Shown: positions 8,308 through 32,224 of the stretch, piece by piece
Numbering within the stretch: the first letter of the stretch is position 1
Layout of the letters: every line of letters starts with the position of its first letter
NCBI GenBank assembly: GCA_000310025.1
Contig: FN649733.1
Span: 3,299,750-3,332,271 of the forward strand
Source of the DNA: Ectocarpus siliculosus
Taxonomy: Eukaryota; Sar; Phaeophyceae; Ectocarpales; Ectocarpaceae
Reading direction: 5' to 3'
Length of the DNA stretch: 32,522 nt
Notes under the pieces: generated by a model
The model's database searches: none
Told to the model about the DNA's origin: nothing
What the model saw: only the letters and a program-made list of their open reading frames with translations
Made by a program: the position numbers and the translations under genes

Positions 8308-9007
8308 CTAAAAAAACGTGTGCATCATCGTTCGTGCCTGCTTCAGAGGGGAAACGCGCGCCATACTTGCAAAACTATGTAGCTATGGGTCCGCCCAAAA
8401 CATGGCGAAAGATTTGGTTCTGGCTTCATTCGTTTCCATCGCCTACACCATGGAGCTGAAACGACAGGGCCATTGCGCATCAATGTGTCACATGTGAGTG
8501 TGTGTCAATGAAATCTCTGACAGCCACCAGCCGCCAACCTAGTAGGAACAACAATCCTCAAATAATGGTTACTGTTTGCCCCGAGAGAGGCAAACGATAC
8601 CGCGCAGCGTCATGCGTTTGTCGTGACGCCAAAGGCTTGGAGGGTTCAAAATATTCAAAAGCCCTAGGGGGGAGGGAGTGGTTATCGTACAACGTGGGAA
8701 TCCTGATGATCGGGTAGGATTGTGTGCTTCAGTGTTTGTCAGGAACACCCCACATCAAATTATCGTGTGACCTTGCAGGGTGGTGGTGTTCAGCACCGTT
8801 CGTTGGAGCAATCCAAAGGTTTCATGGACTCAGCTCTCGATATTGGTTGATGACGCGGCACTGATGCTGATGGCCACATGGTCCATTGAAGGGCGGGTGG
8901 AATTCGTAAGCTGACTTAAGCGAGTTGTGTCGCAGGAACAAGAAGAAACTTGGCATTGACCTTGCGCGGCACATAGATTTAACCAGACGTTAGTCGGTGG
9001 GAAGCGC

Positions 9008-9190
9008 CTAGTTGGTGATGAAAGGATATTTTTCGATCGGTGTTTGAATACTTGCACAACGATTTTGGTTGGCTTCGCGATCAAACTTGGCGAAAATGCA
9101 TTCCGAACGACTCTGTCCAGAGGGGGCATCACTCGCGATAATCGCGTTGAACGCACAACGTGAGTGTTGATTTTGACATTGCCAACTTAC
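9008..9190 (-). other. Possible retained-intron tail (copy A)
   Basis: The frame of the 9191-9381 exon runs through its GTAAGT donor and stays open to a TAG at 9008-9010. Copy B does the same and stops at the homologous TAG (23942). The copies differ inside by a +1 indel and later losses that restore the frame, so the middle is read in different frames. It may be an alternative C-terminus ending PFITN, or chance. Confidence 0.25.
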
Positions 9191-9381
9191 GAGTACGGTG
9201 TAGGGAATGATAGGGGCGCTCCGGCCTGCGTCCGTCAGCTCTAGTGCCACCACAGCTGCGACGCAGAGGCTGCCTGCCACCACGAGGACGCCCGCCTGTC
9301 GTCGGATTCGTATCCTTGCTTTCGCATGCCAGGCCTGAGGTGCCTGTGGAGATACCGGAAAGGCAGCCAACCGAAACGATA
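9191..9381 (-). CDS. Receptor-like gene copy A, exon with C-terminal helix
   Basis: 191 nt: two bases plus 63 codons. It encodes WHAKARIRIRRQ, then a membrane helix (GVLVVAGSLCVAAVVALEL) and PIIPYTVL. The donor is GTAAGTT, near-perfect. The exon has the same length in copy B. Just outside the acceptor the copies differ by 3 nt (cggcagtag against cggtag), which leaves two possible tandem acceptors in copy A. Confidence 0.6.
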
Positions 9382-9463
9382 CTACTGCCGATAAGGACAG
9401 CAATTCGCTGCAGTTGATGGACTCAGTGCTTCGTATACAATGTTGGGCATGCCGCCAACAATT

Positions 9464-10609
9464 ACCGTAATATCCAGCCCGTAATATCCTCTGATTTGTC
9501 CCCCCCCCATGAATTGTCTCCCCCCCCCCCAAATTTCCGGTGAGAACCCGGCGTGCTCCGTCCCGGCTTTGTAGGGATGCGAGGTCAATGGTCTAACGAC
9601 TACAGCATGCACGACTATGAGTACACTACCCTCAATTTAGCCGAAATAGGCACAAAAACGCTGAATTATCCCGGGGACAGTTTTTTTGTTTTTTTGAAGA
9701 TCTCCCCCCTACCGTTGAGATAACCCCGGGGACATATTTTTCTTGGCATAGAAAAACGTGTCCCCGGGGGAGTTTTGCGCATAGAAAACGCGTCCCCGGG
9801 GGAGGAGTGCATGGCAAACGGTTGTTGGTGTGTTTTGTTGAATAACGTCGGAATAAGGCTCGAGGTTTACGGGCTCCGTCCGCGCGTTTAGCAATAATGT
9901 CGCATGATGGTACAAACATCGTTCTTCGAAATCGGTGCAACCGAACCAGCATTCAATCAGTCGCAGTCCTACCCAACCAAGCCAAATCCTCTTCGTTCAA
10001 CAGAGTACCTATTAATAATAGTATTGTTCAACTGATTAGCCTAAAGCAGTAGAAGGCGCAACGGAGCCACATGATGGGCAGTTGAAATCAGAGGACTGGC
10101 CTTTTCGTCCTTTGATGCGGCGGTGCGTGAACAAGGGCTGAGGGTACTCCCGCTGTGGTTTACCCTTCCCTTTGTTGGAGGTGTCTTTGCCGCTATCCGA
10201 GTCAGGGTGTAAACCCCCCCAATTGCTGGCTGCCGTGTGCCTCTTAAGTTGTTGTTCGTAGACGGTGTTTAGACCAGAAATCGTGGAACTGCTGAGGTGA
10301 GGTAGTTGTGTGTGTGAGGGGGTGGTGCGTGTGTTTTTTTTTATAAATAGCATCGACCGCGCTAACATGCTGACCAATGAAAAGACGTCAGTCTTAGTGC
10401 GGTTGAAAACACAAAACAGTTCTATCTGCATGTGTGTGTGTTTCTGGTTGATCTCCCCGGGACAATTTGTCCCAGGGGTGGTGGTTTGTTTGTTTTTTAA
10501 GATGTCCCCCCTACCGTAGAGATTGCCCCGGGGATATCGCTGTGGGCAAAAACGATAGAGGTCCGCCCGGGGACCATTCGGAGGATATTAAGGCACGCAA
10601 TCCATCTGG
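9464..10609. repeat. Copy-A-specific block with CCCCGGGG modules
   Basis: About 1.15 kb present only in copy A. Copy B goes straight from gccgccaacaat to ttaaggatgcgag. It contains two C-homopolymer runs (about 9501 and 9521). It also has a repeated module (t-rich run, then cccccctaccgt, then gagat, then ccccgggga) at about 9679-9730 and 10485-10535. On the minus strand near 9565-9610, GTTAGACCATTGACCTCGC resembles the tRNA-like head of the TIR element's internal units. No gene is seen. Probably a composite of small non-coding repeats. Confidence 0.6.
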
Positions 10610-10631
10610 TAAGGATGCGAGAGAACGCACG

Positions 10632-11411
10632 GTTCGGTGATATCGCACGTACCGGTGATATCGCACCCCCGTGCGACAAAACCCCCAACAACCAGGTGAT
10701 TTAATTATATTATCGCACGGGGTTCGGTGATATCGCACGGGGGTGCGATACCACCGATACCGAGCCCCGAGTGGCTCCGGGGCACTCGCTGCACAGGAGG
10801 AACTTCACGGTATCGTGAACGGTGTTGTACTGTACGTATGGCGGCATCGCCTACCACATATTGAAACACTGGAAAATATGACAAAAACAAGGAGTCAGAG
10901 GAGACTGTCAATGGTCACTTCACGTTATTCATTGGTTGATTCAACCGTTTGCCATCATCAACAGCTACGACCGGTGATATCACACCCCCCGTGCGGTGAA
11001 AAACCAAGACCAATTCATTGAATTTGTGGAAACCAGAATACAGGTATCTTCCCAGTGGTGGTGACACACATGCAACCGTAGAGATCCGAGAACCCACGAA
11101 CGACGTTCCCGAGGTCTGAAGATCTCTACGAAGAAAAGACCCTCCGTCTGCTATGACCAGCCGGAGGGTGAAAGCATGCCCCTAAGGCTCACTCTCACCT
11201 TTCAACCTAGCAAGGCCAACTGAAGTCAGCCACGCCTGGCAATTCCTCGCCACATTGCAACAAGAGCCAAATACCTCCGCTGGTGAACGGTTACTAAATA
11301 CTTTCAAGGACCTTTCCTTGGTAATAGGGAAAGGGTATTCTCACATTCGGTTATCGCACGGGGACCGGCGATATCGCACGTACCGGTGATATCGAACGGG
11401 GGTGCGATAAA
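10632..11411. repeat. Palindromic GGTGATATCGCAC repeat cluster, copy A
   Basis: Six copies or near-copies of ggtgatatcgcac occur within about 780 bp (starting near 10637, 10653, 10726, 10974, 11369 and 11386). Most are adjacent to cccccgtgcg or cgggggtgcgata, so tatcgcac and gtgcgata arms can form hairpins. The cluster lies in an intron of the receptor-like gene and is kept in copy B. It could be remnants of a small foldback element or a protein-binding array. I cannot tell which. Confidence 0.65.
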
Positions 11412-11840
11412 CAGTCAAGAACCGAATCATTTTAAAATCGATCGCACCCGCATGCGTTCTCAAGGATCCTTGCGGTATGCCCACACCTAATTCCCGACGC
11501 AGGACGTGTGAAACAACCCATGGCTAGTTGTCTTCCGTCTTCAATCAGGAGGCTTGTTGTGCCTGCCCTCCTCACGATTGCTGCCGGCGACAATCTAGGT
11601 ACACCCGGTGTTGTGGTGGCATTCACGAGCAAATATCTCCGAACCCGATGCTACAATGGGGTGACTAGGGATTAAAGATGCCTCGGCAAAAAGAAGAATA
11701 GTTGAATGGATCGTACGACTAGTGTACTTGCCTTGGGGCAGTTGGGTCCTTCTTTCAAATGAAGGAGGAAAGGGTGATCGATGTTAGCCCTCACAATTCA
11801 TCGCATGCCGCACGACACCAAATCAGACTGTGAACATCAC

Positions 11841-11903
11841 CTTCGTGTGGGCAATCTTGATCTCCCGGATGAGAATGCCCGCCAGCGTAGTGAACCCGAA
11901 CAT
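11841..11903 (-). CDS. Receptor-like gene copy A, 63-nt exon
   Basis: 21 codons in phase 0 on both sides, encoding MFGFTTLAGILIREIKIAHT and one more Lys. The acceptor ttgctgaatcctttgcag is strong and the donor is GTGATG. A possible alternative terminal exon follows at 11541-11594: 17 codons then TGA, also open and stopped at the same place in copy B. It would give a short hydrophilic end. Confidence 0.6.
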
Positions 11904-12422
11904 CTGCAAAGGATTCAGCAAGTTAGGAAGGCTCGAGCGGTGCGTGTGTCAAGCACATAAGTGAAGTCGCTTTGGATGCCTCTGTCCACGAATCGCGCCA
12001 TCTAGCGCGAACAGAATCATCAAGTGACGAGACGACGTGCCACGACCCGGATTGGGTGGTAATTTGGCCATCCGCCATCTAAAATGAGCTGTGGTCGCCG
12101 ATAGGACGAGCAGGCAGAAACGATGAATTCAACGCGTGATCGTCCTACCCTGCATTTTCGGAAAGAACTATAATATTGGCATGGTTTGGGCTCGTTCTAC
12201 TCAAACGTACATCAGGCTTTGGAGACCTCCTCAGAACGATGGTGCGATGCCTAAGGTATTGCATGGCACCTGACAGTTGTCACGAAATTTCCCCCTTGAT
12301 TTTTCGTTTGTCAAGGAAACAACAGTTTTGAATCAACAGCCGGGTCTGCTAGCAATTATCTCGAACATGCAGGAGCTAGATATTGTGTCAGCTGCTCACA
12401 CCGTCTGCTTGAAGCATCTCAC

Positions 12423-12736
12423 CGTACACAAGCACATTCCACCCGTGGCGAGGTGAACGACCGAGACGATTTTTCGCTTGTCGACGATCAAGGACATCAC
12501 CGCTACAAGAATTGTGGACCCCATACCGGCCCAGCCGCCCCGCACGAGCAGATTCCGTTCCATTGCATACGTCTTCATCTTGGCCATAGCACTACCCGCC
12601 ACGACCAGCTGCTCAGGGGGAGATGGGGTGGAGGAATTGCCCGAGAAGAAATGATTCGAACGGATGCTCGCGTTTCTCGGGAAGGTACAGACCTTCCATA
12701 CAATGTTTGTGGCGGGTGTTGCGCTACAAGTTAGCA
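12423..12736 (-). CDS. Receptor-like gene copy A, 314-nt exon
   Basis: Two bases completing a codon plus 104 codons. The acceptor is ctcaccactcctgcag and the donor is GTGAGA. It encodes a Ser/Thr/Pro-rich loop (FFSGNSSTPSPPEQ) and a basic segment (AKMKTYAMERNLLVRGG). A hydrophobic helix (GMGSTILVAVMSLIVD) follows, then a second weaker one (VSVVHLATGGMCLC). The length matches copy B exactly, with about 13 residue differences. Confidence 0.65.
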
Positions 12737-13560
12737 CTGCAGGAGTGGTGAGAGGAACAGTTTGTGCATTGACAGCTGAGCCGCACGACCGCTAATCACC
12801 ACTGGCACTTAATATACACGCTTTGACGTTTTGCCTCAGCCTGTTGCCTCCGCGTGACGTGTCGTATCTCTCTGTTGTAGCTACTGATGCTGTTGTTCTT
12901 ACGCTGAAACTCGTTCTGGCCTCTGTATCTGGCACCTCCTCCGTCCTCATGCAACCGGGTGTTCATGGCCATAGCCTTTCCCCATCTGAGACCCGAACAA
13001 GACTGAGACGACCCAGAAAATGTCCGGTCGCTCGACAATCATCCTCAAACGATTCATGCGCGGCACTACGAAAACGAAACACAATATTAAGAGATCTACA
13101 AGTTTGCCGCTCATAATCGAAAGTTAAGTACTACAGACGATGAAATGTACCACAAATGATAGGGCGGATCGCTGTGAAAAACAACCGAACAAGAATACCC
13201 CGTACCCATTCGAAGCCCCGGTTTTTTTCACGATCGGGTTAACCGGCGACCATGACAACCCCTTTCGTAGCCAAAATTAAGCATTTACACCGTTTGGCGG
13301 TGACTGGTCTCACGGATTGATTTTGGTTGCTAAAATTGCAGGTCATGGGGGCCAAATGGCCCAACATTTTCTTTGCAAGGAGCGTCGCTTCCCTCAACAG
13401 CACGATCGTCCATCTACTGTTATCTTCGCGGCATGTATGCTCAACATCAACCACATGCAGTTCAGAATATCCAGAGTGTGAGACTTCAAGCTTTTCCATC
13501 GCCAATTAGTTTTTCAAGACTCTCTACAAGTAGGTTACCAAGAAGAAACCGCGTCAGGCG

Positions 13561-13655
13561 TTCAGCCTGGAATTCCTAACCCTAACCCTAACACCCCTAG
13601 CACTAGCCCCGCTTTGCCAGCACACAAAATCGGTGGGTTCAAATTCCAGGCTGAA
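13561..13655. repeat. Interstitial CCCTAA repeats inside a 14-bp inverted repeat, copy A
   Basis: Three CCTAAC units (13575-13592) lie between ttcagcctggaatt (13561-13574) and its perfect reverse complement (13642-13655). The right arm overlaps a box-B-like GGTTCAAATTCC. The same arrangement occurs in copy B at 26963-27057, so it predates the duplication. Confidence 0.75.
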
Positions 13656-14348
13656 TGAACACTCGAGGTTTTCCTGAGACCCTGGAAACTCTTGGATATA
13701 GTATCGGTGGCGAAATATCTCTACGTCTGAGACCCTGGGCTTTGTGACCTGAACGTGGGTGATGTCTTGAGAAGAATGGCAACGAAATGGCCCCACCAGA
13801 TGATCATTAGTGCTGGTGAGGGGAGCGACCCTCCTCGAAAGGAAAAGCGTCTGCTCATTTGGACCCCACGCTTTACATATTTAGCAACCGAAAGCTATTG
13901 GGCTAGGCAACTAGAGTCGGTTGCCCCAACGGTTTGATTGCACTAGCTATTTCCTCCCAATCCACCATGGGAGAAAATAACATAATGTGCGCTCTTTCCT
14001 CGCCATATTTTCACGTGCCCCTACTGATTCAGAAAGCTCGCTGTCCCAGGTATCCACCAGGTAAACATACACACATTCCCGGATGTTGGGGGGCACACGG
14101 CCTGTTTTCGCCGGGTTGTCACAACTGAACATAGAATTGGGACCTATGACATATTGTCCTTAATTTTCCCAACCCCCCTTTGCGCTCCGCAGCTCCTCTA
14201 TTCAGATTCGCCTGCAGCTCACTATGTAGGAACTCGGTTCCCGGGCGTACTGTAGTCGGCTATTTAGTCTTACGTTGCGACCTTGCTCAAGGATGCCCCG
14301 TCCCATGTGCAGCCAGGAGTTACTTTGCTTGCCATAGAGATCATTCAC

Positions 14349-14584
14349 CTGTGAGGGCACTGATTCCAGCCAGATTTCCGTGAAGCTGCCGCAGACAACC
14401 GGAAGAGGGGAGATGCTCATGGCCATGGCGACCCAAAACATTCCGCCGTCCCATATCGCCGCATGGCCCTCACAGACCGCAGCAACGCCAAACCCGATCG
14501 TCGTTCCAAGCGAGGAACAGCTTCTCGGCAGATACGGGGTGCGTGCCACGGTGGGACGGGGTTCGATCGGAGTCAATTGTCTCA
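14349..14584 (-). CDS. Receptor-like gene copy A, 236-nt exon
   Basis: Two bases plus 78 codons. The acceptor is tgctttgcccctttgacag and the donor is CACAG then GTGAAT. It encodes RQLTPIEP, a hydrophobic segment (SLGTTIGFGVAAVC), then GGMFWVAMAMSISPLPVVCG and an acidic IWLESVPSQ end. The length is identical in copy B. Confidence 0.65.
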
Positions 14585-14681
14585 CTGTCAAAGGGGCAAA
14601 GCACGCGTGAGGCGAATGTGGTCACTGTAGGTGGTCCGGCCCGTGGGAGTGCTTGTCGCGATCGGCTTTAGAACTACGTAC

Positions 14682-14755
14682 CATCGCAGCCAAAACGTTC
14701 TAGGATGACGAGGAATGTGCGGTACAGTAGTTTGCCCGCCGGTGGAGGGTACGTC
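14682..14755 (-). CDS. Possible linking exon end, copy A
   Basis: The minus-strand frame YPPPAGKLLYRTFLVILERF runs to a GATG-GTACGT donor at 14682. Its leftover G joins the TG of the next exon to make Val, so the phase fits. The acceptor is not found because copy A and copy B diverge just upstream of here. In copy B the frame is interrupted by a 2-bp insertion. Confidence 0.3.
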
Positions 14756-15678
14756 CAGACAAAATTGCACGCACAAAATTGGCAAAAATTTCCGAAAAGA
14801 GGCTCAGATTTTGTCGGCATGACGTGGCGACTGCCTCCTGCTGATTGGCCGAAAGGTTCGCGCGCGACGTTCCGACGCCGCTTCTTCGCTTGCCTACACA
14901 AGAACGAAATTTTTTTGTTATTGCGTGGTTGGCTGCAGCTATCTACCATCCAAGGTGCCAGGAGCATCATCTAGCAGGGGTGGGCGTTGTCACCGCAGAG
15001 AAACACCCTGAAAAGACTTCTTGCAAGCAAACTCTCAGCCGTTCAGGTGGCTTGTTTCAATCAAGCGAAAGAGGGAGGCGGCGGTTCAACAGCAGGTAGC
15101 TGAGCAGCAGCAGCAGCAGCTTCAGCCTGGAAGAATCGCCCTTACACTATCTATTTCCTGCATTCCAAACCGCAACATCTGTCTAGAGGAGGTGGCGCCG
15201 ATAGAGAGTAACACGAGGCAACTTTTGGGCCACCTCCCGGCAGTTCGAGTGACCTACAGCTCATGGTCTTAGAGTTCTCCCGAATTGGTTGTACGCAGAC
15301 GATTTTGGCGGCTGGTGAACCTTGTCTCATCGCACCCTTCCTTCCTTGCCCGTTCCACAAAATGTTGACACACACCACCCGCATCGGAGGAGCAGGCTTG
15401 TCCAGTGGTGGTGATATGAGCCTCGGACGAGTGAGTCGATTTCATCTTTTGTGGTTAACTGGTATGTACTCTGTTTCCGCTGAAAGCCTGAGGCAGCTGA
15501 ACACAAACCCATGCCTCAGATATTTTGAAGGTGGTGAAGGGTGTTTATCTCAGCGGTGGGGAGAAAGTGGGGCCGTCTCGGACAAAACAAATCGTTACCG
15601 GCTATAATATTAAAAAATCTGACCCTCGGTTTGTCAGAGCCATTTGTCTGACCCAAAAATAAACTTCCGAAACGGTCT
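14756..15678. other. Copy-A-specific intronic block
   Basis: About 920 bp that replaces an unrelated block of about 200 bp in copy B (28162-28355). It includes a short CAG run near 15104-15120. No gene, TIR or tRNA-like head is evident. Confidence 0.5.
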
Positions 15679-15986
15679 AATGATTCAGGTTCGCTACTTA
15701 CTGTAGCCGACAACATCGGACCAGGCGAATTGTGCCAGAAATGGAACTCCAAGCAAGCGTATTGAGAACCTACATTTACGGGTTGAGAGACCCGCGACTA
15801 CCACAGATGGAACTGCGACCCATCGCAACGAAAAAACTCAGCATTCGCACCAACTGCTGAATTTCTACACGAGTTATAGTCGGCCGCAAGAGCGGAGCAC
15901 AAGTGCCGTCTCTTGAGATTCTGCCCGGGATGCGAAGCTATGTAGCTGCGGTACTGGTTGCAACCACGGCAACAACGAGAAAATAC

Positions 15987-16138
15987 CTGCTCGCAGCGAT
16001 CAGTCGGCGACGCGAGACACCTCGATGCGTTGCCCTAGCCGCTGCCGACATGTAGCTGGACTGAACCAGATGCCACATGCAGATCACGAACGCAGTAGCC
16101 GCCACCACGCTAACGCTGAGATAGAAATTAACAAGTAC
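15987..16138 (-). CDS. Receptor-like gene copy A, first membrane-helix exon
   Basis: 152 nt entered in phase 0. It encodes a membrane helix (NFYLSVSVVAATAFVICMW) followed by a basic segment (GVSRRRLIAAS), typical of a cytoplasmic loop. The acceptor is tctcgttctaaaccag and the donor is GAGCAG then GTATTT. The intron before it is only 138 nt in copy A. Confidence 0.65.
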
Positions 16139-16276
16139 CTGGTTTAGAACGAGAGGTATTGGGTGGGCAGCGGGCGGAGCTTTACGTACGCGGCATGCGT
16201 CGATGTTCAATCGATGAGGCCTTCAGCCTCCCGGCGTGTACGGCTGTAGACTACACATACATACGTACATGCGCAC

Positions 16277-16426
16277 CTGCTTCGGGACGCAACTGGGGTT
16301 CCCGAAGGAATCTCTCGAGACGAAGCCAGCATCGCACTCGCATGTGTCGTCAACGCTACGATCTTCGGCTACGATACACCTTCCAGATCCACCCCATAGG
16401 GGATGCCGGCACTCGAAAACTCAACG
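16277..16426 (-). pseudogene. Receptor-like gene copy A, EGF-like exon with stop
   Basis: 50 codons in phase 0 in the copy-B frame. It keeps the FECRHPLWGGSGRC and CECDAGF landmarks and the SCVPKQ end. The second codon is TGA (16421-16423) where copy B has TGC. That change removes the first cysteine of the module and stops translation. The donor is CAG then GTGCGC. Confidence 0.6.
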
Positions 16427-16475
16427 CTCTCCCGACATCAAGTTGCTCCTGGGCAGTAGAGACAACAGATCATGT

Positions 16476-20147: not shown

Positions 20148-21100
20148 CGTTTTCAACCATTTTGTAGGCGTCTTGGCTGGCCCAGCTTGTACCCATTCAC
20201 CATTCACCAGAGGCATGACCAGTCAAACCGGAATAGCCACAAGTTCACGAACCGCAACAGGATGCGCCGCACGCATGTCTGTCGGTCATCAGTCCGTCGT
20301 CGGTCGTCGGTCAGTCGGTCAGGACCGCGAACCAGAAATCAGCTGCGCAACTCCCGGGGATACCCTCCATCTGTCCCTCCCCGGCAGTTGGGACAAGCAG
20401 TCCGTCTCGTCCGCTACCGCTACCGGCTGGGCTAGAGTGGGAGGCCAGACGAAGGCACACAACCTGTGGGGGCTGCAACTCCAGAGCTGCTGTTGTATTA
20501 CAGCCACTTCGCGGAACAAACTCCACTTGCGTCCCCAAACCCGTGAGAATCCTGGAAGAAGAGCGAGACGCCGGCGTGCGACACAGCCGACGACAACCGT
20601 TAGGCAGACATGCACCCGCAATGCGGTCTGTTGCTTCCTTTGTGCCTATCCACCGTGAAGAGAATAAGATGGGTAACATTGCTGTGCGCGGTGCGCAGGT
20701 ATACAGCTGACCAACTAACTATACTGCTGTCTGTGCCGTCTTCTGCTGAACAGCTGGACAGCTGCATGCAGTTAGTTGTTGTTCCTTCTGGCGGAGATGT
20801 GCGCCGGGTTCTCCGGCATCCCTATATATCTATGTCGACTAGACCATAGCTTCTTACCTGCTGCTGTTTACGCATTAAGATACATGCGGCGAAGACAGAC
20901 ACGTGCTGGAGGTGGAGTGGATCTATTGTTTGTGTTCTACTAGTAGTCGTGGGAAGTGAAAACGACCGCAAACTCACTATCTATACCTGTAGCCAAACAA
21001 TCACCAACCAACCGCTCATTGGCCGGCATTGTCGAGTGCTTCCGATGGACAACCTATCTATCTATGCATAGCCTTTGCACAACCTTGTATCTTTGTAGGG
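20148..21100. other. Spacer before copy B, no gene recognised
   Basis: It holds overlapping open frames of up to 161 codons on both strands without recognisable motifs. A degenerate GTC/GGTC-rich run lies at about 20275-20325. Confidence 0.4.
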
Positions 21101-21168
21101 GAACGTCGACGCGAAACAAGTTGATATTGAGAGGCGCCGTTGTGGTTCGTGGGCAGGTCTGTGATCTC

Positions 21169-21230
21169 CCTCGATTGGGCTACGTACAACCCCGTTGGCT
21201 AGAAGCTTGGGTTCGATTCCCGCATCGAAG
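21169..21230 (+). other. Short tRNA-like sequence (copy B edge)
   Basis: Counterpart of 3835-3897: box B GGTTCGATTCC, CCTCGAT/ATCGAAG ends, and a CGTTGGCTAGAAGC box-A-like block set directly beside box B. Copy A has extra T-rich bases at this junction. Confidence 0.5.
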
Positions 21231-21933
21231 AGTTCGTTTGTTGCAATTTCGATTGGAAAATGGTTTAATTTCGCGAACACTGCATTCACACTCTAGACTA
21301 GTCTATCTGCCGTGTCTCCGGCGGAACCTCGTTGTTGGCCTTGGTAAAGTGGGCCTTGTGTAGAAAGTCTTTCTGTTTGCCGCGCGCAGAACAATCTCTG
21401 CTGATGCGATCACACAGACATGGGTGGCAATCGATTCGCGACTGAATTCAGTATCATCACAAGAGAATGTATGTGAGGTGGGGCGGAGATAGCGGTGCTG
21501 ATGATTTCATAGGCACGACCCCCCACGAAGACTGGAATATCATTCGCGCCTGAGGTAAACTGCAGGACAAGTAGTGACAGCGCAATGTTAACTAGCGTCG
21601 GGCTTTAGTGGCTTCATTTGTGCTATGGCTGCCTCTCTGGATTGTCATTGTTCCTACCTACATAACAACAATACATTTTTTCTGATATGTGTCTGGTGGA
21701 TTGGGTTGGCGGTACCGTTTGTAGTAGTGTGTTGCCTGCAGAGGTTCCACACACAGCAGCTTCGACCATGCGACTTGACGTGGTGCGCAGGGTGCGTTGC
21801 AATGCCCCTGGGCCCGCTGCTGCTGTTACAAAGCCTGGTAAATGTGACCACCATATCTTCTTCATTGGGGACGCTAGACACGGTCACCATACCGCATGCG
21901 AAGGAACACGTAACTAATCGGCAAGACGGAGAT

Positions 21934-22005
21934 GTATCGGCCGGACTCGAACCTGGACGGACCAGACGATGCCCGGGCGATTCACCACTTCGGGGGAGCC
22001 AACAC
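21934..22005 (-). other. tRNA-related pseudogene or SINE head (copy B)
   Basis: Counterpart of 4491-4562, also 72 nt. Its end stem uses two G-T pairs, and box B is unchanged. Confidence 0.5.
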
Positions 22006-22937
22006 TCCCAGGCGCGACGCACAAGCCACGACGGAGGGGCTAAAAGATATCAAGGTGGATTATGAAAAGGGATCGCTTGATGGGAGGCGAGTCGCTTGGC
22101 GGGTCAGAGTGATGCAAGATTTGGAAAGGTGGCAAGGGGTTAAAGCAAGTGAACTTCCGTTGGACGAGGAAGTGGTGGTTGTGGGGAAGAGGCCGCGGAC
22201 GCACAGCTGCCCAAGAACCCATTTGGCGTCGTGCTTCTGGGGTGGGCGTGCCAGCGTTCTCTGTACAAGGCGTAACAACCCCCCAATCAATAAGGAAGGG
22301 TGGGGTGAATGAGAAGGCCATCACAGATACCTGAGTAGCGCCGTTCGGCGGAAGCTAAGCTGATACCAACATGGTATCACTTTTAAGCCCCGACGGAGTA
22401 CATTTGCTGTAGTCAGATAGAGAGGGCTACCGCCGGGGCCTAGTGGCAGACGACCGGACTGCTTCCAAGTTGTGGGAAGAAATTGAAAGATGAACCCCAT
22501 ACCTCCTTTACGTGGTCGGGTCGTTCACATGTCCGACTGCACCATACGAAGAACGTGCACTCCTGTAGCTTTCCTCAAGGTCGGATCGTCCGCTGTATGC
22601 CACGATCGATACGGCACATTCATTCCACGTGTGCACGCCCAGATGTCAAGATGATGGCTCGTCCCGGTGGTGCCCGCCGACACCTTGTCTTTCTCTCACC
22701 GGACTCTCCTGCAGTACTATTTATATCGAGGACTCCTCACGGCTCGTGGGGTTTCCTTCAGGGTCCTCGGGGTCCTTCAGCCTGTGGCTAGATGTCCATT
22801 CACATCCATTCCTTGTCTTGGCCGCGCACACAAGCGCCAATTGAAGCAGGCTCGTCATCCTCCTATTCAAGTATACTACGTGGACAATATCCAGTCACTC
22901 TACATGTATGAGCCTGTGCACACACGTCACCGATTCA

Positions 22938-23240
22938 TCATTCTAATAGCTCTGACGCCATCGGGATCACCTTCATGGTCAGGGCTCCTCTATTTGATCC
23001 GACGGCAATAGGGTTAGCCTCTTTCTTAACGCACTGCCTTTCGTCGTCACTTTTCTCTTCAAATGCCTTGGTCCCTCTCGGGGATAGGAATGATTTCGCC
23101 ATCGATGTTAAAGATGAAACAGCTGGGTAGCCCACGGCTGATGACTGTCCCAGGAATCGTCGTGCAGATGGTGGTGCCCTCGCCCCAGCTGGCTTCGTCA
23201 AGTGAACCGTCGTACCTAAACCCACTGTTCCCAGCAACAT
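22938..23240 (-). CDS. Receptor-like gene copy B, terminal exon (tail)
   Basis: 101 codons including the stop, phase 0 after acceptor cacgcttttcag. It is a charged tail (KAFEEKSDDERQ) with short Ser-rich patches. Relative to copy A it has five extra residues (GYPAV region) and one fewer near the stop. Confidence 0.65.
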   Translation of the reverse strand: MLLGTVGLGTTVHLTKPAGARAPPSARRFLGQSSAVGYPAVSSLTSMAKSFLSPRGTKAFEEKSDDERQCVKKEANPIAVGSNRGALTMKVIPMASELLE

Positions 23241-26200
23241 CTGAAAAGCGTGTGCATCATGGTTCGTGCCAACTTCAGAGGGGAAGCGCGGGTCAAACAT
23301 ACTCGCAAACCTATATCGCTATGGGTCCGTCCAACTATGGTGAAATATTTGGTTCTGACTTCTTTCGTTTCCATCGCCTACACCAGGAAGCTGAAACGAC
23401 AGGATCATTGCGCATCAATGTGTGAAATGTGGGTGTGTGTCAATGAATCCATGACAGCCACCCGCGGCCAACCTACTGCAGTAGGAAAACACTCCTATCA
23501 TACAATAATGGTTTCTGTTTGCCCCGAGAGTGGCAAGCGAAAGCACCCAGCGTCATGAACGGTACCGTGATGACGAAGGCTTGGAGGGTTCAGAATATCC
23601 CAATCCCTAGAGGCGAGGGAGTGGCTATCGTATAATGTGGGAATCCTGATGATCGGGTAGGATGTGTTCGTCAGTGTTTGACAGGAACACCCCACATCAA
23701 ATCATCGTGTGACCTTGCAGGGTGGTGTTCAGCACCGTTCGTTGGAACCGTGCGAAGTTTTTATTCGACTCAGCTCTCGATATTGGTATATGACGGCGAC
23801 ACTGATGTTGATGGCACCATGGTTCATTCAAGGGCGGGTGGAATTCGTCAGCTGACTTAACCAGATTGTGTTGCAGGAACAAGAGTAAACTAGGCATTGA
23901 CCTTGCGCGGCAAATTGATTGAACCAGTCGGTGGGAAGCGCCTAGTTGGTGATGAAAGGTTGCTTTTCCGGCGGGTGTTTGAATACTTGCTCATACGTAT
24001 TTTGGGTTGTCTTAGCAATCACATTTGCGACAAATGCATTCCAAATGGCGTTGTCCAGAGGGGGCATCACTCGCGATAATTGCGTTGAACGCAAACGTGG
24101 GTGTTGATCTTGATATTGATAACTTACAAACACCGTGTACGGGATGATAGGGGTGCTCCGGCCTGCGTCCCTCAGCTCTAGCACCACCATAGCTGCGACG
24201 CAGAGGCTGCATGCCGCCACCAGAACGCCCGCCTGTCGTTGAATTCGTATCCTTGCTTTCGCGTGCCAGACCTGTGGTGCCTGTTGAGGTACCGGAGAGA
24301 CAGCCAGCCGAAACGATACTACCGATAAGAACAACAGATCGCCGCAGTTGATGGACTCATCAGAAAACATGTGACCACCCAGTGCTTTGTATACGACGTT
24401 GGACTTGCCGCCAACAATCATGCAATACGGGCTTAAGGATGCGAGAGGACGCACAATTCGGTGATATCGCACGCACCGGTGATATCGCAAGCTATCGTAC
24501 CCCCCGTGCGACCAAAAACCCAACAACCAAGTGATGCAATTCGATCATCGCACGGCGTTCGGTGATATCGCACGGGGGTGCGATATCATCGATACCAAGC
24601 ACCGGGTGGCTCCGGGGCACTCGCTGCTGCGCAGGAGGTACTTCGCGGTATCGTGAACGATGTACTGTACGGCGGCATCGCGCACCACATATTGAAACAT
24701 TGGAAATATGACAAAAACAAGGAGTAAGAAGAGACTGTCATTGGTTACTCTCACGTTATTCATTCCTTTATTCAACCATTTGTAATCAACAACAGCGACC
24801 GACTTCCCGTGCGGTGAAAAACCAAGATCAAATAATTAAAATCGATTATCGCATGATATCGCACGTACCGGTGATATCGAACGGGGGTACGATAAACAGT
24901 CAAGAACAAGCCCCATGACATAATCAATCGCACCCCCGTGCGTTCTCACGTTTCATTACGGTATTTTCCCATCTAATTCCCGACGTAGGACGTGTAAAAC
25001 AATCCATGGATAAATGTCTTTCGTCTTCAATTAGGAGGCTTGTCGTGCCTGTCCTCCTCGCGATTGCTGCCGTCAACAATCTAGGTACACCCGGTGTTGT
25101 TGTGGCATTCACGAGCAAATATTTCCCAACCCGATACCACATTGGGGTTTTAGTTTTATAGGGATTGGAGGTGCCTGGACTAAACGAAGAATAGTTGAAT
25201 GGAGTGTGTGACTGGTGTACTTGCCTTGGAGCAGTCGGGTCCTTCTTTCAAATGAAGGGGGAAAGGGTGATCGATGTTAGCCCTCACAATTCATCGCATG
25301 CCGCACGACACCAAATCAGACTGTGAACATCACCTTCGTGTGGGCAATCTTGATCTCCCGGATGAGAATGCCCGCCAGCGCGGTGGAACCGAACATCTGC
25401 AAAGGATTCAGCAAGTTAGGAAGGTTCGAGCGGCGCGTGTGTCAGGTACACAAGTGAAGTCGCTTTGGATGCCTCTGTCCACGAATCGCGCCATCTAGCG
25501 CGAACAGAATCATCAAGTGATGAGACGACGTGGCACGACCCGGATTGGGTGGTAAATAGGCCATCCGCCATCTAAAATGAGCTGTGGTCGCCGATAAGAC
25601 GAGCAGGCAGAAACGATGAACTCAACGCGTGATCGTCCTACCCTGACATTTTCGGAAAGAACTATTGGCATGGTTTGGGCTCGTTCTACTCAAACGTACA
25701 TCAGGTTTTGGAGACCTCTTCAGAACGATGGTGCGATGCCTAAGATATTGCATGGCTCCTGGCAGTTGTCGCGGAGTTTTCCCCTTGATCTTTCGTTTGT
25801 CAAGGAAACAACAGTTTTGAATCAACAGCCGGGTCTGCTAGCAATTATCTCGAACATGCAGGAGCTAGATATTGTGTCAGCTGCTCACACCATCTGCTTG
25901 AAGCATCTCACCGAACACAAGCACATTCCACCCGTGGCGAGATGAACGGCCGAGATGATTTTTCGCTTGTCGACGATCAAGGATATCACCGCTAGAAGAA
26001 TTGTGGACCCCATACCGGCCCAGCCGCCCCGCACGAGCAGCTTCCGTTCCAGTGCATACGTCTTCATCTTGGCCATAGCACTACCCGCCACGACCAGCTG
26101 CTCAGGGGGAGATGGGGTGGAGGAATTGCCCGAGAAGAAATGATTCGAACGGATGCTCGCGTTTCTCGGGACGGTACAGACCTTCCATACCATGTGTTTG

Positions 26201-29200
26201 GTGGGCGCTGCGCTACAAGTTAGAACTGCAGGAGAGGTAAGAGGCACAGTTTGCGCGTTGACAGCTGAGCTACACGGCCACTAATCACCATTGGCAATTA
26301 ATGTACACCCGTTCACGTTATGGTTCAGCCGGTTGTCTCCGCGAGACGTGTCGTATCTCTCTGCTGTGGTTACGAATCCTGTTTTTCTTACGATGAAACC
26401 TGGTCTGGCCTCTATCTGGTACCTCCTCCGTCCTCATGCGACCGGGTGCTCTTGGCATAGGCTATCCCCATCTGAGACCCGAGCAAGACCGTATGTCCCA
26501 TCGCTCGATAACTATCCTCAAATGATCCATGCGCGGCACTACAGGAAAGAAACAAAAATAACTGGGTGGATCGCTGTAAATAACAACCGGACAAGAATAC
26601 CCCGTACCCGTTCGAAGCCACGGTACTGTTCACGATAGGGTTAACGGGCGACCATGGCAACTCCTTTCGCAGTTAAAACCAACCCACTACACCGATTGGC
26701 GGTGACTGGTCTCACGGATTGATTTTGTTTGCTAACATTGCAGATCGTGGGGTCGAAATGACCCGACATTTTCCTGCGAGGAGGGTTGCTTCCCTCAACA
26801 GCACGATATTCCATCTACTGTTTTCGTTGCCGCATATTCTCATCATCAAAACCACATGCAGTTCAAAGTATCCAGAGTGTGATACATCGAGCTTTTCCTT
26901 CGCCCATAGCCATCCAAGACTCTCTACATGTAGGGTGTCAAGAAGAAAAGCCACCTCAAGCGTTCAGCCTGGAATTCCTAACCCTAACCCTAACACCCCT
27001 AGCACTAGCCCCGCTTTGTCAGCAAACAAAATCGGTGGGTTCGAATTCCAGGTTGAATGAACACTCGAAGTTTTCCCTGAGACCCTAGAAACTCTTGGAT
27101 ACCGGCGGCGAAACAACTGCTGTACGTTTGAGACCATAGATTCTCTGACCTGAACGTGGGTGATGTCTTGAGAAGAAAGACAGCGAAATAGCGACAATAG
27201 GTGAGCAATAGTGCTGGTGGCGAAGCGGCCCTCCTCGAAAGGAAAAACGTCCGCTCATTTGGACCCCACGCTTTGCATATCTAGGACCGAAATCAAACTA
27301 TTGGGCCAGGCAACTAGAGCAGTCGGTATTGGGGTTGATTGCGCTTGCGGCTTCCTCTCAATCCACCCTAGGAGAAGATTTGTTCAAACCAAACCAATGA
27401 ATTCTCTTCCCTAGACATATTTTCACGTGCCCCTACTGATTCCGAAGCCTCCTCTCTGTCCCAATTATCCACCAGGTGAACACATCCATAATTTCCTAGG
27501 GGGCACACGGCCTGTTTCGCCGGAGTATCACAACTGAACATTGATTTTGTCCCCTGTGACATATTGTCCCTAATCCCCCCAACCCCGCTTTGCGTTCCGC
27601 AGCTCCTCTATTCAGATTCGCCTGCAGCTCACTAGGAACTGGTCCCCGGGCGTATGGTAGTCGGTTTGTCTCATTTCGCCCTTGCTCCAGGATGCCTTGT
27701 CGCATGTGCAACCAGGACTTACTTTGCTTGTCATAGAGATCATTCACCTGTGAGGGCACTGATTCCAGCCAGAGTTCCAATAAGCTGCCGCAGACAACGG
27801 CAAGAGGAGAAATGCTCATGACAATGGAGACCCAAAACATCCCGACGTCCCATATCGCCGCGTGGCCATCACAATACGCAGCAACGCCAAACACGATCGT
27901 CGTTCCAAGAAAAGAAAAGCTGCTCGGCAGATACGGGGTGCGTGCCACGGTGGGATGGGGTTCGATCGGAGTCAATTGTCTCGCTGTCCAAGGGGCAAAG
28001 CACGTCCTGCGCGATTGTGGTCGCTGTAGGTGGCAGGCTCGTGGGAGTGTTCTTTTCTCGATCGGCTTTAGAATTACGTACCATCGGAGCCAAAACGTTC
28101 TAGAGGATGACGAGGAATATGCGGTAAAGCAGTAGTTTGCCCACCGGTGGAGGGTACGTCTTCGCATGAGTTGAAGGTCCACTGAGCCGATATTGATCCA
28201 GTCAAGCCAAGTTTTCAAATCTCTGGCAGCCCATTTCTCCAAGAGTGGAGTACCGAGTTCATTAGACGTCTCACAGCGAAGCCCACAGACGTGAACTTCG
28301 CGTATTCCCCACGTCGGGCGTGTCTGAAACACCCCTTTTGGCATTCCTAAGCTCCAGTCTAATGTCCCAGGTTCGCTACTGCAAATGTCTGTTCTGCGCC
28401 AACAACATCGGGCCAAGCGAATTGTGGCAGAATGGCACACCAAGCGTATGGAAAACCTACATTTCGGGTTGAGAGATCCGCGACGCCCACAGATGGAAAA
28501 GCCACCCATTGCAACGAAAATCCTCAGCTCCTTTGTACCAACCGCTGAATTTCTACACAAGGTATGGCCGGCCGCATGATGAGTGGAGCACAAGTGCCGT
28601 CTCTTTCGATTCTGCCCCGAGATACGAAGCTGCGGTACTGGTAGCAACCGCGGCAGCGAGCGCAGCGAGTAAATACCTGCTCGAAGCGATCAGTCGGCGA
28701 CGCGAGACGCTTCGACACGTTGCCTTAGCCGCTGCCGACATGTTGCTGTGCTGAACCAGATGCCACAAGCAGAGGACGCACGCAATAGCCGCCACAACGG
28801 CAACGCTGAGATAGAAACTAACAAGTACCTGGTTTAGGACGAAGGGTATTGGGTGGGCAGCGGCCGGTGTTGATATTTGAGCTTCACGTGAGCAGCATGC
28901 ATTGATATTCAATCGAGGAGGACGTGGTGCAAGCCGTGTCATGACATTTGGATGACCAGGCAAACGTAGCAGCTTCGTAGATGAAGCCGATGCGACATTG
29001 AACGTATTTCGAGCGCGTGGGAAACACATGTTCCGTGTTCTCGGGTCGTTGTGCGGCCCGTCCATGGTTGCCGTGTACTCTTGTGCAAAAAGACAAACAA
29101 CACCGTCGGCGGAAGGTTTCTGCATGAAGGAACATTTCTCCCCGATGTCCATATTTCTCTAAATTCCCGTCCAGTGTGGTCGTTGGTGCAGCACCGGCCC

Positions 29201-31049
29201 TCTAGTAAGAAATGTTCAACTCTGGTAGGCTCGGGTTCTTATTTCGTCGCCACCGTCGAGCATGGACTACCACATCTGCAGAGTAGAGTGTCATGTAGGA
29301 TACACAGCGGAGCTGGCCTCATGTGTTGCTCCGAGTGATACTGCATACTTTGGAAACGTTGAACCTGTCCTGCATTGTTTTCCCTGCGGTATGTAGCGGG
29401 GCGGTATAACATACATGCATGTGGGGACAAATAGGACCACTCATAAACCGGCGGTGCCCCCAATGGCGCTACATAGTCGATGTACTCTTCGCGGATAACC
29501 CCCGCGCGTTTGCACGCACACAAAGCGAACAACACCCACCGCGGTAATCATACACACAGGCAGCGCACGGTCTATATTTGCAAGGCAAGAATGTTGTTCC
29601 TCGAATTGTGCGCCGATAAACCAACGCGCCAAACAGATATGACAGGAGCATTGTGTTGTTTGGTCAAGCATGATCGAAACAAGGCACCAAGCAGCGTGGC
29701 AAAGAGGCAGAGGTGATGTCACTGATTCGAAAGGATAGAAGTGGACTTTGCATTTTCACGTGTTTGATGCACGTACGAGGCGCGTGTTATTCTTCAATCT
29801 TTGTGAGGGGTCGTGACTTGAACCATTGTCTCGTCTTTGGCCTCCACCCCGCACCCCCATTCTCTCTACCGTTAAGTTCATCCGCGGATTGCATTGTTCG
29901 AGGCGCCACCGTCCTCCTCAGCGGCTGGTGTTGAGTATGGATACACTATCATAGTTGAGTGCGTGGCGAACGAAATGACCTATGACACAAGTTCGAAGGG
30001 GAGAACAAAAAAAAGCAATGTGTTGCGTATTTTTCATTTTCCTGTACACATCTGTAGGAGGTACTTGTATTATAGTCTAAAGCACTATTGTATTAAATCA
30101 TAAAACTCTCGTTTGTCTTCACAGGGTGGATACCTACTCGATGCTGGCTGGCTAACCCAGGACCCCCCTACTGTACGCATCCTATCCTTTTCCCCATCTG
30201 GTCTCCACCCATATATCATGACAACCCAACGTTACTCGAGCGGCTGCTTGACGACTTAGTTGGATGCGCAACGAGAGGGGGAGCGCGCATGGCATGTACA
30301 GATAGATTTGTCTCGGCGTGCCGAGCCTCTCTCTGCGTCGGTGTATATGACACATGTATGTAGAGTATGTACGTACTTCCAACCCAACCCAACCCGACCC
30401 CAAAACACACAACCCGACCAATCGACCGACCACCAACCGATCAACCAAACCCACTCTACCCACAACCCAACCCTAAACCCTACCCAATCCAACACAAAAC
30501 ACAAAACCCAGCCCCAACCCAATCGGCGTGTAGAAACTATGTATGTATGTATATATGTATGTTACAGTCTACTGTATAGTTTCCAACAAAAGTTTACTCT
30601 CCTCTCACTCCTGTACAGCCTGTAACGGCGGTGGAAATTCGATGAATCTAAACCATTAGACCACCCAGTCAGGAGATAGAGCTGTCGTCCGCTGACTGAA
30701 ACCTGACTCTGGGGTAGTCTAGAGGATAACAGCCGCAGTATACCAGCACGTAGGGTTCGCATCCCAGCTGGATCACTTAGAGCACACCACTATTTATTTA
30801 CATAATACAGAAGTAATTTCCTCCTTCAGCATGGCGAGGGGTTCGTCCCCCGAGATCACAGTCGTCACTGCTCGGAGGAGGAGAGCCCTCGTGTGCATCT
30901 TGTATCAGAGAGTCGAATGGCTAAACCATTGTTTCAAGTAGACCACACTCGCCGGGCAGTGGTCTATTGGGTTCAGCCTTTCTTTGTCGACTACCGCATG
31001 TAGACTATGCATATCAACCTCTGGTACACTGCTGGACGTAGACGAAGTA

Positions 31050-31090
<41 letters not shown>

Positions 31091-31271
31091 TTGTTGCACA
31101 CGTACGTGCGTACATGCGTACCTGCTTCGGGACGCAACTGGGGTTCCCAAAGGAATCTCTCGAGGCGAACCCAGCATCGCACTCGCATGCGTCGTCGGCG
31201 CTACGATCTTCGGCTGGGATACATCTTCCAGATCCACCCCACAGCGGATGCCGGCACTCGAAAACGCAACG
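22938..31271 (-). CDS. EGF-like multi-pass membrane protein gene, copy B (partial)
   Basis: Exons at 31122-31271, 28677-28828, 27748-27983, 25912-26225, 25334-25396, 24128-24318 and 22938-23240 mirror copy A with the same boundaries. The first has an intact cysteine pattern (C-x3-C, then GRC, then C-x-C, then a final C before VPKQ) and leads in frame to a membrane helix. I infer a surface protein with a short EGF-like ectodomain piece, several helices and a cytoplasmic tail. The family is unknown to me. Phases require an exon between the second and third blocks, one between the third and fourth, and one between the fifth and sixth. The start codon and further ectodomain exons are expected above 31.3 kb but were not recognised. 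The candidate second linking exon carries a 2-bp insertion that creates TAG, so this copy may also be defective. Confidence 0.55.
24128..24318 (-). CDS. Receptor-like gene copy B, exon with C-terminal helix
   Basis: 191 nt. It encodes WHAKARIRIQRQ, helix GVLVAACSLCVAAMVVLEL, then PIIPYTVF, with donor GTAAGTT. The phase-0 end allows direct joining to the 22938-23240 exon. The acceptor is ttgttcttatcggtag. Confidence 0.6.
24458..24945. repeat. Palindromic GGTGATATCGCAC repeat cluster, copy B
   Basis: Five copies or near-copies (from about 24462, 24478, 24560, 24852 and 24870) with the same cccccgtgcg / gggggtgcgata companions as in copy A. The cluster is shorter here because the unique spacers between motifs differ. 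Confidence 0.65.
25334..25396 (-). CDS. Receptor-like gene copy B, 63-nt exon
   Basis: 21 codons in phase 0, MFGSTALAGILIREIKIAHT plus Lys. Splice sites are identical to copy A. It lies in the high-identity patch shared by the copies. Confidence 0.6.
25912..26225 (-). CDS. Receptor-like gene copy B, 314-nt exon
   Basis: Same length, phase and splice sites as 12423-12736. It encodes the FFSGNSSTPSPPEQ loop, a basic AKMKTYALERKLLVRGG segment, helix GMGSTILLAVISLIVD and ISAVHLATGGMCLC. The acceptor is cctcttacctctcctgcag. Confidence 0.65.
26963..27057. repeat. Interstitial CCCTAA repeats inside an inverted repeat, copy B
   Basis: CCTAAC units at 26977-26994 lie between 14-bp arms at 26963-26976 and 27044-27057 (one mismatch). 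The right arm overlaps GGTTCGAATTCC, a good box B match. Confidence 0.75.
27748..27983 (-). CDS. Receptor-like gene copy B, 236-nt exon
   Basis: Counterpart of 14349-14584. It encodes RQLTPIEP, hydrophobic FLGTTIVFGVAAYC, GMFWVSIVMSISPLAVVCG and LELWLESVPSQ. The acceptor is tgctttgccccttggacag and the donor GTGAAT. A 383-codon frame (27496-28647) runs open through this exon and its introns, so an unspliced reading is also possible. Confidence 0.65.
28677..28828 (-). CDS. Receptor-like gene copy B, first membrane-helix exon
   Basis: 152 nt, phase 0 at entry. Helix SFYLSVAVVAAIACVLCLW, then a basic SVSRRRLIASS segment. The donor is GAGCAG then GTATTT. The preceding intron is about 2.3 kb, against 138 nt in copy A. 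Confidence 0.65.
30379..30523 (+). repeat. A/C-rich, G/T-poor tract
   Basis: About 145 bp made almost wholly of A and C (aacccaaccc, ccaccaacc and similar), with only about six G. It includes telomere-like ccctaaaccctaccc near 30471-30485. Probably a degenerate simple repeat or telomere-like satellite. Confidence 0.75.
30539..30562 (+). repeat. GTAT/GTATAT microsatellite
   Basis: A run of tatgtatgtatgtatatatg-type repeats, about 24 bp. Confidence 0.75.
30710..30775 (+). other. tRNA-like sequence (SINE head or pseudogene)
   Basis: Box-A-like TAGTCTAGAGG lies about 33 bp before box-B-like GGTTCGCATCC, a normal pol III spacing. A full cloverleaf is not convincing. It sits in the copy-B-specific block. 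Confidence 0.4.
31051..31088 (+). repeat. AC microsatellite
   Basis: 19 AC units, uninterrupted, 30 bp downstream (minus-strand sense) of the EGF-like exon's donor in copy B. Copy A has only a few acat/acgt units here. Confidence 0.95.
31122..31271 (-). CDS. Receptor-like gene copy B, EGF-like exon
   Basis: 50 codons, phase 0 at both ends. It starts RCVFECRHPLWGGSGRC, continues through a short acidic linker to CECDAGF, and ends GNPSCVPKQ. Six cysteines and the C-x-C-x-x-GF signature fit the EGF-like fold. The donor is CAG then GTACGC. The acceptor is placed at gtcgggagag by phase and is the least certain boundary. Confidence 0.6.
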
Positions 31272-31330
31272 CTCTCCCGACATCAAGTAAGTTTACATAC
31301 TCCCTGACACAGTAGAGACAAACAGATCGT

Positions 31331-32224
31331 GTTGCTGCTGAGCGTCTTTTGTCGAACAATCGTGACACCACACGAGTTGTTCGCGTTGTAACAACGACGG
31401 CCAATTCAACGTACGAAACAAACAACAGCAGTCAAGCCATTGCTGGCACGACGACACATTGGACAGGCGTTACGTGAAAAAAGGCGTGAAGGCTGGGAAG
31501 AAGGTGCGGCGAAATCCACGAGGCATGGGCCAATCAGAAAATCGAACCATCAGGCCATTTCTTGCGGTTCTTTTTTCGCAGATCTTTTTTTCCCCCTTTC
31601 GGACAACCCAGAAAGGGGCGATTTTTTACTGGTGGTGCATGAAAAAAAAAAGAAAAAGGAAAAGGAGGAAACCCCGGGTTTTGTAGGAAGAGTTCTGCTG
31701 CGATCCGTCACGTGTTTGACTCGACCTTACTCGACCATCCCGCCCTCGATTAACTCGCGAGTTTTTGCACTAGATGCGCAAAGAAAGCCAGTACCACCCT
31801 GGATCGACATACACATTAACATGCATGCATGTACGGTGTGGCTTTCTCTCTATCCAACAGAACCGCGTGACCACCAGTATTCGGATAGCATGCAGAGAGC
31901 CCGCAGCCCGCACTGCATGGGAGTAGTAGCCGTCGCGAGCAGAGCACAGGACAATGGCGGGCGCTGCCTCGACAGATCATGCACAGAGGATGAGAAAAGA
32001 TCCAAGTTAAATACTCTCCAACGGCCACAAGTAGTCTTGCTTCTAAAACTCAGCAGACCAACCCAGCGCTGCGTCGTGACTAAATAATAAGCAGCAGGGC
32101 AAGGAACCAAGACCTGCTTGGGAAAGCGTGTGTATTGGTCTGAAAGGGTTCATCCGGCTGCCAGGCTCTCTGTTTAGCCGGGGGGCGCACCCTCTCTCTC
32201 TCTCTGTCATCAGCTGTCGCATCA
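31331..32224. other. Right flank, no gene recognised
   Basis: The missing 5' exons of copy B's gene should lie in this direction, but no cysteine-rich or signal-peptide-like minus-strand frame is convincing. A plus-strand frame (31440-32087) is open but low-complexity (Lys/Glu run near residue 75) and lacks a strong start. Confidence 0.4.

Follow-up and report, generated by a model that had tools for sequence, protein, structure and literature searches.

The window, i.e. the whole analysed stretch of 32,522 nucleotides, contains a gene in two direct tandem copies on the minus strand, designated copy B (31283-22938) and copy A (16438-8017). In both copies, seven exons (E1 to E7) could be joined in phase through GT-AG introns (Table 1). 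The original prediction of seven blocks with common splice sites was borne out: the two copies share all of them, and GT and AG stand at corresponding places in all six introns, the acceptors being those chosen by the analyst. As predicted, the lengths of six exons (162, 152, 232, 186, 63, and 153 nt) do not differ between A and B. The seventh (303 nt in B, 291 nt in A) had been described as varying only in frame, which is true of the 15-nt gap and not of an 8-nt out-of-frame indel at the stop codon, altering the last 2-3 residues. With the refined acceptors, the copy B blocks join in phase to 416 codons, open from ATG to stop. Flanking DNA also lies within the duplication (3762-5253 and 21096-22694, self-blastn).

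Table 1. Exons of the two gene copies and extent of the duplicated unit in the window.
Feature	Position	Strand	Remarks
Copy B exon 1	31122..31283	-	Candidate ATG start and putative EGF-like module; phase 0 out
Copy B exon 2	28677..28828	-	TM1 and basic loop; 2 nt left over at the end
Copy B exon 3	27748..27979	-	End of loop 1, TM2, TM3; its acceptor is the model's weakest site
Copy B exon 4	25912..26097	-	TM4 and first part of TM5; refined acceptor behind a long pyrimidine-rich tract, phase 0
Copy B exon 5	25334..25396	-	Remainder of TM5, beginning of basic loop 3
Copy B exon 6	24128..24280	-	Remaining basic loop 3, TM6, first part of TM7; phase 0 with the refined acceptor
Copy B exon 7	22938..23240	-	Remaining TM7, charged tail, stop
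Copy A exon 1	16277..16438	-	Putative EGF-like module; in-frame TGA at codon 6, the position of the first EGF cysteine
Copy A exon 2	15987..16138	-	
Copy A exon 3	14349..14580	-	
Copy A exon 4	12423..12608	-	
Copy A exon 5	11841..11903	-	
Copy A exon 6	9191..9343	-	
Copy A exon 7	8017..8307	-	15-nt in-frame gap relative to B
Duplicated unit, copy A	3762..16475	.	Self-blastn, right edge by eye; interrupted by insertions
Duplicated unit, copy B	21096..31335	.	Self-blastn, right edge by eye; own insertions

Splice sites and the 5′ end

Since the splice sites were picked to preserve phase and helices, the spliced model is no independent evidence for either. The E3 acceptor is a GAG located 6 nt past a better-looking CAG, to which the E2 donor would not join in phase. 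That CAG does fit an extended E2 (donor CCA|GTACCG), whose frame stays open in both copies; this may be an alternative to the chosen E2/E3 junction and would lengthen loop 1 by 12-14 residues, most of them hydrophobic. A first joined model (474 aa), in which the blocks E3, E4, and E6 extended further, was rejected due to out-of-phase junctions and, in copy A, a stop within the longest form of E3, and both faults were cured by the refined acceptors. Additional exons between 24127 and 23241 were left out, as 1-nt indels occur throughout this region and the direct in-phase joining of E6 and E7 yields TM7; nevertheless, the loosest automatic exon chain placed two short blocks there.

Upstream of exon 1, homology between the copies ends after about 40-50 bp. 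Inspection by eye revealed a 10-nt difference between the copies behind a common CAG acceptor-like site upstream of exon 1 and, in copy B, an in-frame TAA just upstream of the ATG. Neither a signal peptide in copy B nor an upstream signal-peptide exon in 31284-32522 was found by eye. Given its early stop and the end of homology, copy A is most likely a pseudogene, a tandem duplicate with a lost start region.

Cysteine module and hydrophobic segments

The cysteines of copy B exon 1 follow the pattern C-x3-C-x10-C-x11-C-x1-C-x14-C, which includes the motif CECDAGF. EGF modules are characterized by six cysteines in order, C4-x-C5 and a glycine-aromatic pair after C5, all of which are present in copy B, whereas C1 is replaced by the stop in copy A. 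The module is therefore termed EGF-like here, by its cysteine order alone. In the Pfam search no EGF model was matched, the sole match being SLR1-BP with an E-value of 0.016, under its cut-off. Structure prediction for exon 1 resulted in four short strands (pLDDT 66), and a PDB fold search with this model returned three weak matches (best E 2.6), no EGF among them.

Only four residues separate the last cysteine of the module from the exon in which TM1 starts. The predicted arrangement, an EGF-like module joined in phase and without a spacer domain to a membrane helix and its basic loop, was recovered in the spliced 416-codon model by hydropathy, as were the further helices and the charged tail. 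On the splice sites chosen, seven hydrophobic segments were detected in B and seven matching ones in A, the number of helices in the fold that, according to the original prediction, would support a GPCR-like receptor. TM5 and TM7 are each assembled over an exon junction, and the hydropathy of TM2 is low (1.32 in copy B and 1.26 in copy A). For the longer version of the E3 block (28023-27748), single-sequence folding gave a two-helix hairpin (helices 35-51 and 57-87) with low confidence.

Stretches rich in Lys and Arg lie between TM1 and TM2, TM3 and TM4, TM5 and TM6, and past TM7; the TM4-TM5 stretch, outside in the model, is likewise basic (DKRK). Judged from the translated sequence, copy B appears to have a GPCR-like topology with the N-terminus outside, seven helices, mostly basic inner loops and a charged tail. 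The tail comprises about 88 residues and has no predicted helix. A TM1-TM2 loop of about 47 residues, as found here, is long for a GPCR. An outer cysteine-rich module on TM1 together with a charged tail lacking predicted helices is more typical of receptors than of other membrane proteins.

Divergence of the copies and controls

The claim that introns vary freely could be confirmed for their lengths only. Some differ strongly between B and A (2293 vs. 138, 697 vs. 1406, and 1053 vs. 2497 nt), others are nearly equal (1650 vs. 1740, 515 vs. 519, and 887 vs. 883 nt). In sequence, the aligned introns 2-6 are 84.1% identical (3789/4508; sums from the alignment rows, as the printed total of 3955/4730 also counts a 3′ flank), and the E4-E5 intron even 95.7% (492/514). 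Intron 1 was omitted from this count because a large insertion separates the copies there. The seven blocks, as first drawn, are 89.7% identical (1278/1425), and with introns this similar, exon conservation by itself proves little. Apart from the 8-nt indel at the stop, the 1425 aligned bases of the blocks contain one indel, compared with 67 in 4508 intron bases, a contrast that is biased because the blocks were picked for being gap-free.

The comparison of copy A with copy B resulted in an overall dN/dS of 0.59 (95% interval 0.41-0.87, Fisher p = 0.012). In the other two frames of nearly identical blocks the ratios were 1.07 and 1.10, both given without a significance test. The original prediction is weakened by the early stop in copy A and by ratios that are not low throughout: low values were obtained for E1 (0.22), E6 (0.27), and E5 (0.31) and intermediate ones for E7 (0.61) and E3 (0.74), whereas E2 (1.79) and E4 (2.49) exceed 1.

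Counted from exon 2 onward, the best sense chain contains six hydrophobic segments conserved in both copies, compared to 1-3 in the antisense, reversed, and complemented alignments and 0-2 in 16 block-shuffled alignments. The contrast was smaller in a cruder count over all unspliced frames: at a mean hydropathy of at least 1.6, 14 segments were found on the three minus frames of copy B vs. six on the three plus frames, and eight vs. four in copy A. At the loosest threshold, up to 8-9 hydrophobic stretches occur in a single unspliced plus-strand frame. Paired conserved reading frames arise on control strands too, the longest measuring 273 nt antisense vs. 396 nt sense.

Interpretation and comparison with known systems

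No match to Pfam 7tm families was obtained for either copy up to E 10, with most weak matches dropped by the HMMER filters, and the 7tm_3, 7tm_2, and GPS models did not match. A PDB sequence search gave no match, NCBIfam no meaningful one, and Rfam none at the gathering threshold. Two pattern searches in viral contigs (29 and 14 pattern matches) and one in prokaryote genomes (71) left none confirmed, and a plasmid search with the DNA of 25100-26300 gave none. No convincing relative was found in Pfam, NCBIfam, PDB, or the viral and prokaryote collections. Among the literature matches listed, no such protein is described for brown algae.

Copy B is probably a seven-exon gene encoding a 416-residue receptor-like membrane protein of GPCR-like topology, with copy A as its likely pseudogene. 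It is quite improbable that conserved open frames of a young duplication were taken for exons. The long paired frames on control strands, introns almost as alike as exons and the hydrophobic stretches in plus-strand frames would fit such an artefact, but the excess of conserved segments over the control strands, a dN/dS interval excluding 1 in this frame and the complete frame from ATG to stop argue against it. It is considered fairly unlikely that both copies are decaying remnants of what was once a larger receptor gene with multiple helices, and that no full protein is made from either now. Such decay is favoured by the modest overall dN/dS with two exons above 1, the early stop in A and the state of the 5′ end (the 10-nt difference, the TAA in B and no upstream signal-peptide exon seen); the seven exons of B, however, are open throughout, E1, E5, and E6 range from 0.22 to 0.31, and the exons of the two copies differ by just two indels, an in-frame one and one at the very end.

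Topology does not by itself prove signalling, and with no family matched, the protein could be a transporter or other non-receptor membrane protein with seven helices by coincidence; the outer module directly on TM1 and the charged tail without a predicted helix speak against this, and it is regarded as unlikely. A known GPCR class is possible but doubtful, most plausibly a Glutamate (class C)-like receptor with an EGF stalk, diverged beyond Pfam detection. The long TM1-TM2 loop and the missing 7tm and PDB matches oppose this, whereas the topology fits and EGF-like modules are reported in glutamate-type receptors, namely mGlyR/GPR179 and those of other opisthokonts (PMC12716839). As a tentative and rather speculative proposal, the gene may represent a separate seven-helix receptor family in one eukaryote lineage (brown algae or relatives, as a guess), with a single EGF-like knob straight on TM1, no GAIN, ANF, or Cache domain, and tandem expansion.

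If copy B acts as a receptor, its most likely mode of action would be that the cysteine module outside senses or holds a ligand or a component of the wall, upon which the bundle of seven helices shifts and the tail, together with the basic loops on the inner side, couples to G proteins. Should the model be true, a compact receptor candidate is gained that combines an EGF-like module with seven helices, comes with a full exon map and has no meaningful match in the searched family libraries. Descriptions of receptor families from organisms other than animals, plants, and fungi are scarce, so that even one well-defined seed gene would enable family searches by others.

The EGF-TM7 adhesion GPCRs (ADGRE: CD97, EMR) likewise combine an outer EGF-like module with seven helices. 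They differ in their GAIN/GPS region between module and TM1, for which the four residues present here leave no room. With mGlyR/GPR179 and the EGF-bearing Glutamate-family GPCRs (PMC12716839), the model shares the EGF-like module in a seven-helix receptor, but its 416 residues include neither a Cache nor an ANF domain. Two sex-pheromone-responsive proteins of the diatom Seminavis robusta, compared by description, carry these features separately, Sro65_g036830 being a transmembrane protein with an EGF-like domain and Sro1719_g293450 having 7-8 predicted helices (PMC8027222). The oomycete GPCR-bigrams join a GPCR to a C-terminal kinase or phosphatase domain (PMC5784254), whereas the tail described here, with no Pfam match, ends without a catalytic domain.

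Duplicated unit and exon structure

The window is intron-rich eukaryotic DNA with a GC content of 48-57% (2-kb steps). Self-comparison revealed two direct tandem copies of one unit, copy A at about 3762-16475 and copy B at about 21096-31335, with 81-92% identity across eight larger aligned pieces and large insertions in each. Copy A was probably the comparison partner behind the original prediction, the gene described being that on the minus strand of copy B. As claimed there, six of the seven exons are equal in length between the copies. The seventh, said to vary only in frame, contains a 15-nt in-frame gap and an additional 8-nt indel at the exon end. In both copies, exons 1-7 are entered in phases 0, 0, 2, 0, 0, 0, 0. 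Copy B has 416 open codons from ATG to stop. In copy A, a TGA at codon 6 stands in place of the EGF-like module's first cysteine, and codon 413 is the terminal stop.

Exons (E1-E7), derived from the copy comparison plus a phase check, and membrane helices (TM1-TM7) of the copy B protein, predicted by hydropathy
Feature	Copy B	Copy A	Strand	Remark
E1	31283-31122	16438-16277	-	
E2	28828-28677	16138-15987	-	
E3	27979-27748	14580-14349	-	
E4	26097-25912	12608-12423	-	
E5	25396-25334	11903-11841	-	
E6	24280-24128	9343-9191	-	
E7	23240-22938	8307-8017	-	
TM1	residues 55-73			then long basic loop
TM2	residues 121-139			weak
TM3	residues 150-168			then basic loop
TM4	residues 206-224			
TM5	residues 238-256			then basic loop
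TM6	residues 283-301			
TM7	residues 310-328			

By eye, the homology between the copies extends only some 40-50 bp past the 5' end of exon 1, and slightly farther upstream copy A meets an element with inverted arms (16510-16537 / 20171-20198); copy A therefore probably lacks its own promoter and any further 5' exons. An in-frame, open, signal-peptide-like hydrophobic run immediately 5' of exon 1 in copy A (about 16546-16439, minus strand) overlaps the arm of the element, runs into the TGA and has no counterpart in copy B. For copy B, no signal peptide was seen by eye in 31284-32522 and an in-frame TAA immediately precedes the ATG, so that either the exon 1 ATG is the true start or copy B, too, is broken.

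The insertion between the copies (16510-20198; end arms 28 nt, 86%) looks like a DNA transposon. It contains a 533-aa open frame (17783-19381, plus strand) and a Resolvase Pfam match under the cut-off (E 0.018); none of 12 pattern matches to viral contigs was confirmed. An assembly gap of 100 N (19919-20018) has an 82-nt arm at its left with an inverted partner at 20066-20147. In the 3' flank of copy A, the insertion at 5287-7800, with 26-nt inverted arms (5287-5312 / 7775-7800) and an internal direct repeat (5628-6072 / 6760-7206), is probably another transposon. The last 300 bp or so of the window (32225-32522) form an inverted repeat that is interrupted and has CT/AG runs (arms 66 nt, 97%, and 31 nt, 100%). 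A GATATCGCAC/ACCGGTGATATCGCAC motif is dispersed in intron 5 of both copies (10626-10666, 11352-11401, 24459-24487, 24854-24879), its occurrences in copy A being called as 18-nt tandem repeats.

Conservation, controls and selection

Conservation between the copies does not by itself lift the gene model above chance. The exon blocks as first drawn are identical at 1278 of 1425 bases (89.7%), the aligned bases of introns 2-6 at 3789 of 4508 (84.1%) and intron 4 at 492 of 514 (95.7%). The best chains of paired open blocks with common AG/GT sites, which differ from the final exon model, scored 1322, 923 and 686 in sense vs 952, 658 and 409 in antisense at three penalties, a modest margin. Helix content separates the strands better. 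From exon 2 onward, six conserved hydrophobic segments were found in sense, vs two in antisense, three in reversed and two in complemented sequence when helix-weighted, and one in each control when unweighted. Shuffling of blocks (16 runs) gave 0-2, but breaks reading frames, which makes the comparison with the three strand controls the fairer one. A cruder count in unspliced frames showed a smaller sense contrast: at a mean hydropathy of at least 1.6, 14 minus vs 6 plus segments in copy B and 8 vs 4 in copy A, and at 1.3 up to 8 (B) or 9 (A) in one plus frame.

Between the copies, dN/dS was 0.59 over 410 codons (bootstrap 0.41-0.87; Fisher p 0.012), with stop and gapped codons excluded and the last two codons, past the 8-nt indel, paired position by position; the two other frames of nearly identical blocks gave 1.07 and 1.10. 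Per exon, E1-E7 gave 0.22, 1.79, 0.74, 2.49, 0.31, 0.27 and 0.61. The ratio is not near 1 in all blocks, and strong constraint was not seen; the values would fit one constrained and one relaxed copy, short of proof. A stretch of about 1 kb (25150-26150 in B, about 11650-12650 in A) with 92-97% identity through exon and intron, flanked by about 83-85%, suggests gene conversion between the copies.

Predicted protein and receptor reading

The predicted layout was recovered in the copy B model, with the helices placed by hydropathy: an EGF-like module (C-x3-C-x10-C-x11-C-x1-C-x14-C), TM1 with its basic loop, further helices and, after TM7, a roughly 88-residue tail containing charged stretches. 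Copy A has the same seven segments; one more weak peak per copy (B 1.02; A 0.96) was left uncounted. Exon junctions fall within TM5 and TM7. An alternative, longer exon 2 would add 12-14 mostly hydrophobic residues to loop 1.

Weak single-sequence fold models gave four short strands for exon 1 (pLDDT 66), with no EGF match in PDB, and two helices for the exon 3 block. The sole Pfam match of exon 1 was SLR1-BP (E 0.016, under its cut-off). The joined protein had no 7tm, EGF or GPS match to E 10 in Pfam, where HMMER filters discard most weak matches, only two chance-level matches in NCBIfam (E 0.12 and 0.13), none among PDB sequences and no confirmed relative in viral and prokaryote contigs. As eukaryote genomes lay outside these searches, the absence of relatives says little.

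The original observation was largely right, and a receptor is a plausible reading. The coding layout, the hydrophobic segments and the early stop of copy A are shown. The N-terminus would lie outside, given the cysteine module and the mostly basic inner loops; the basic TM4-TM5 stretch (DKRK), outside in this topology, speaks against it. The cysteine module may sense a ligand, and the signal may pass via G proteins. Relevant to an Ectocarpus source, PMC3879662 reports that the genome of this alga contains six paralogs of G-alpha, and that GPCR, growth-factor-receptor and integrin family members occur in its gametes. The copy B gene is likely GPCR-like, with no class assigned.
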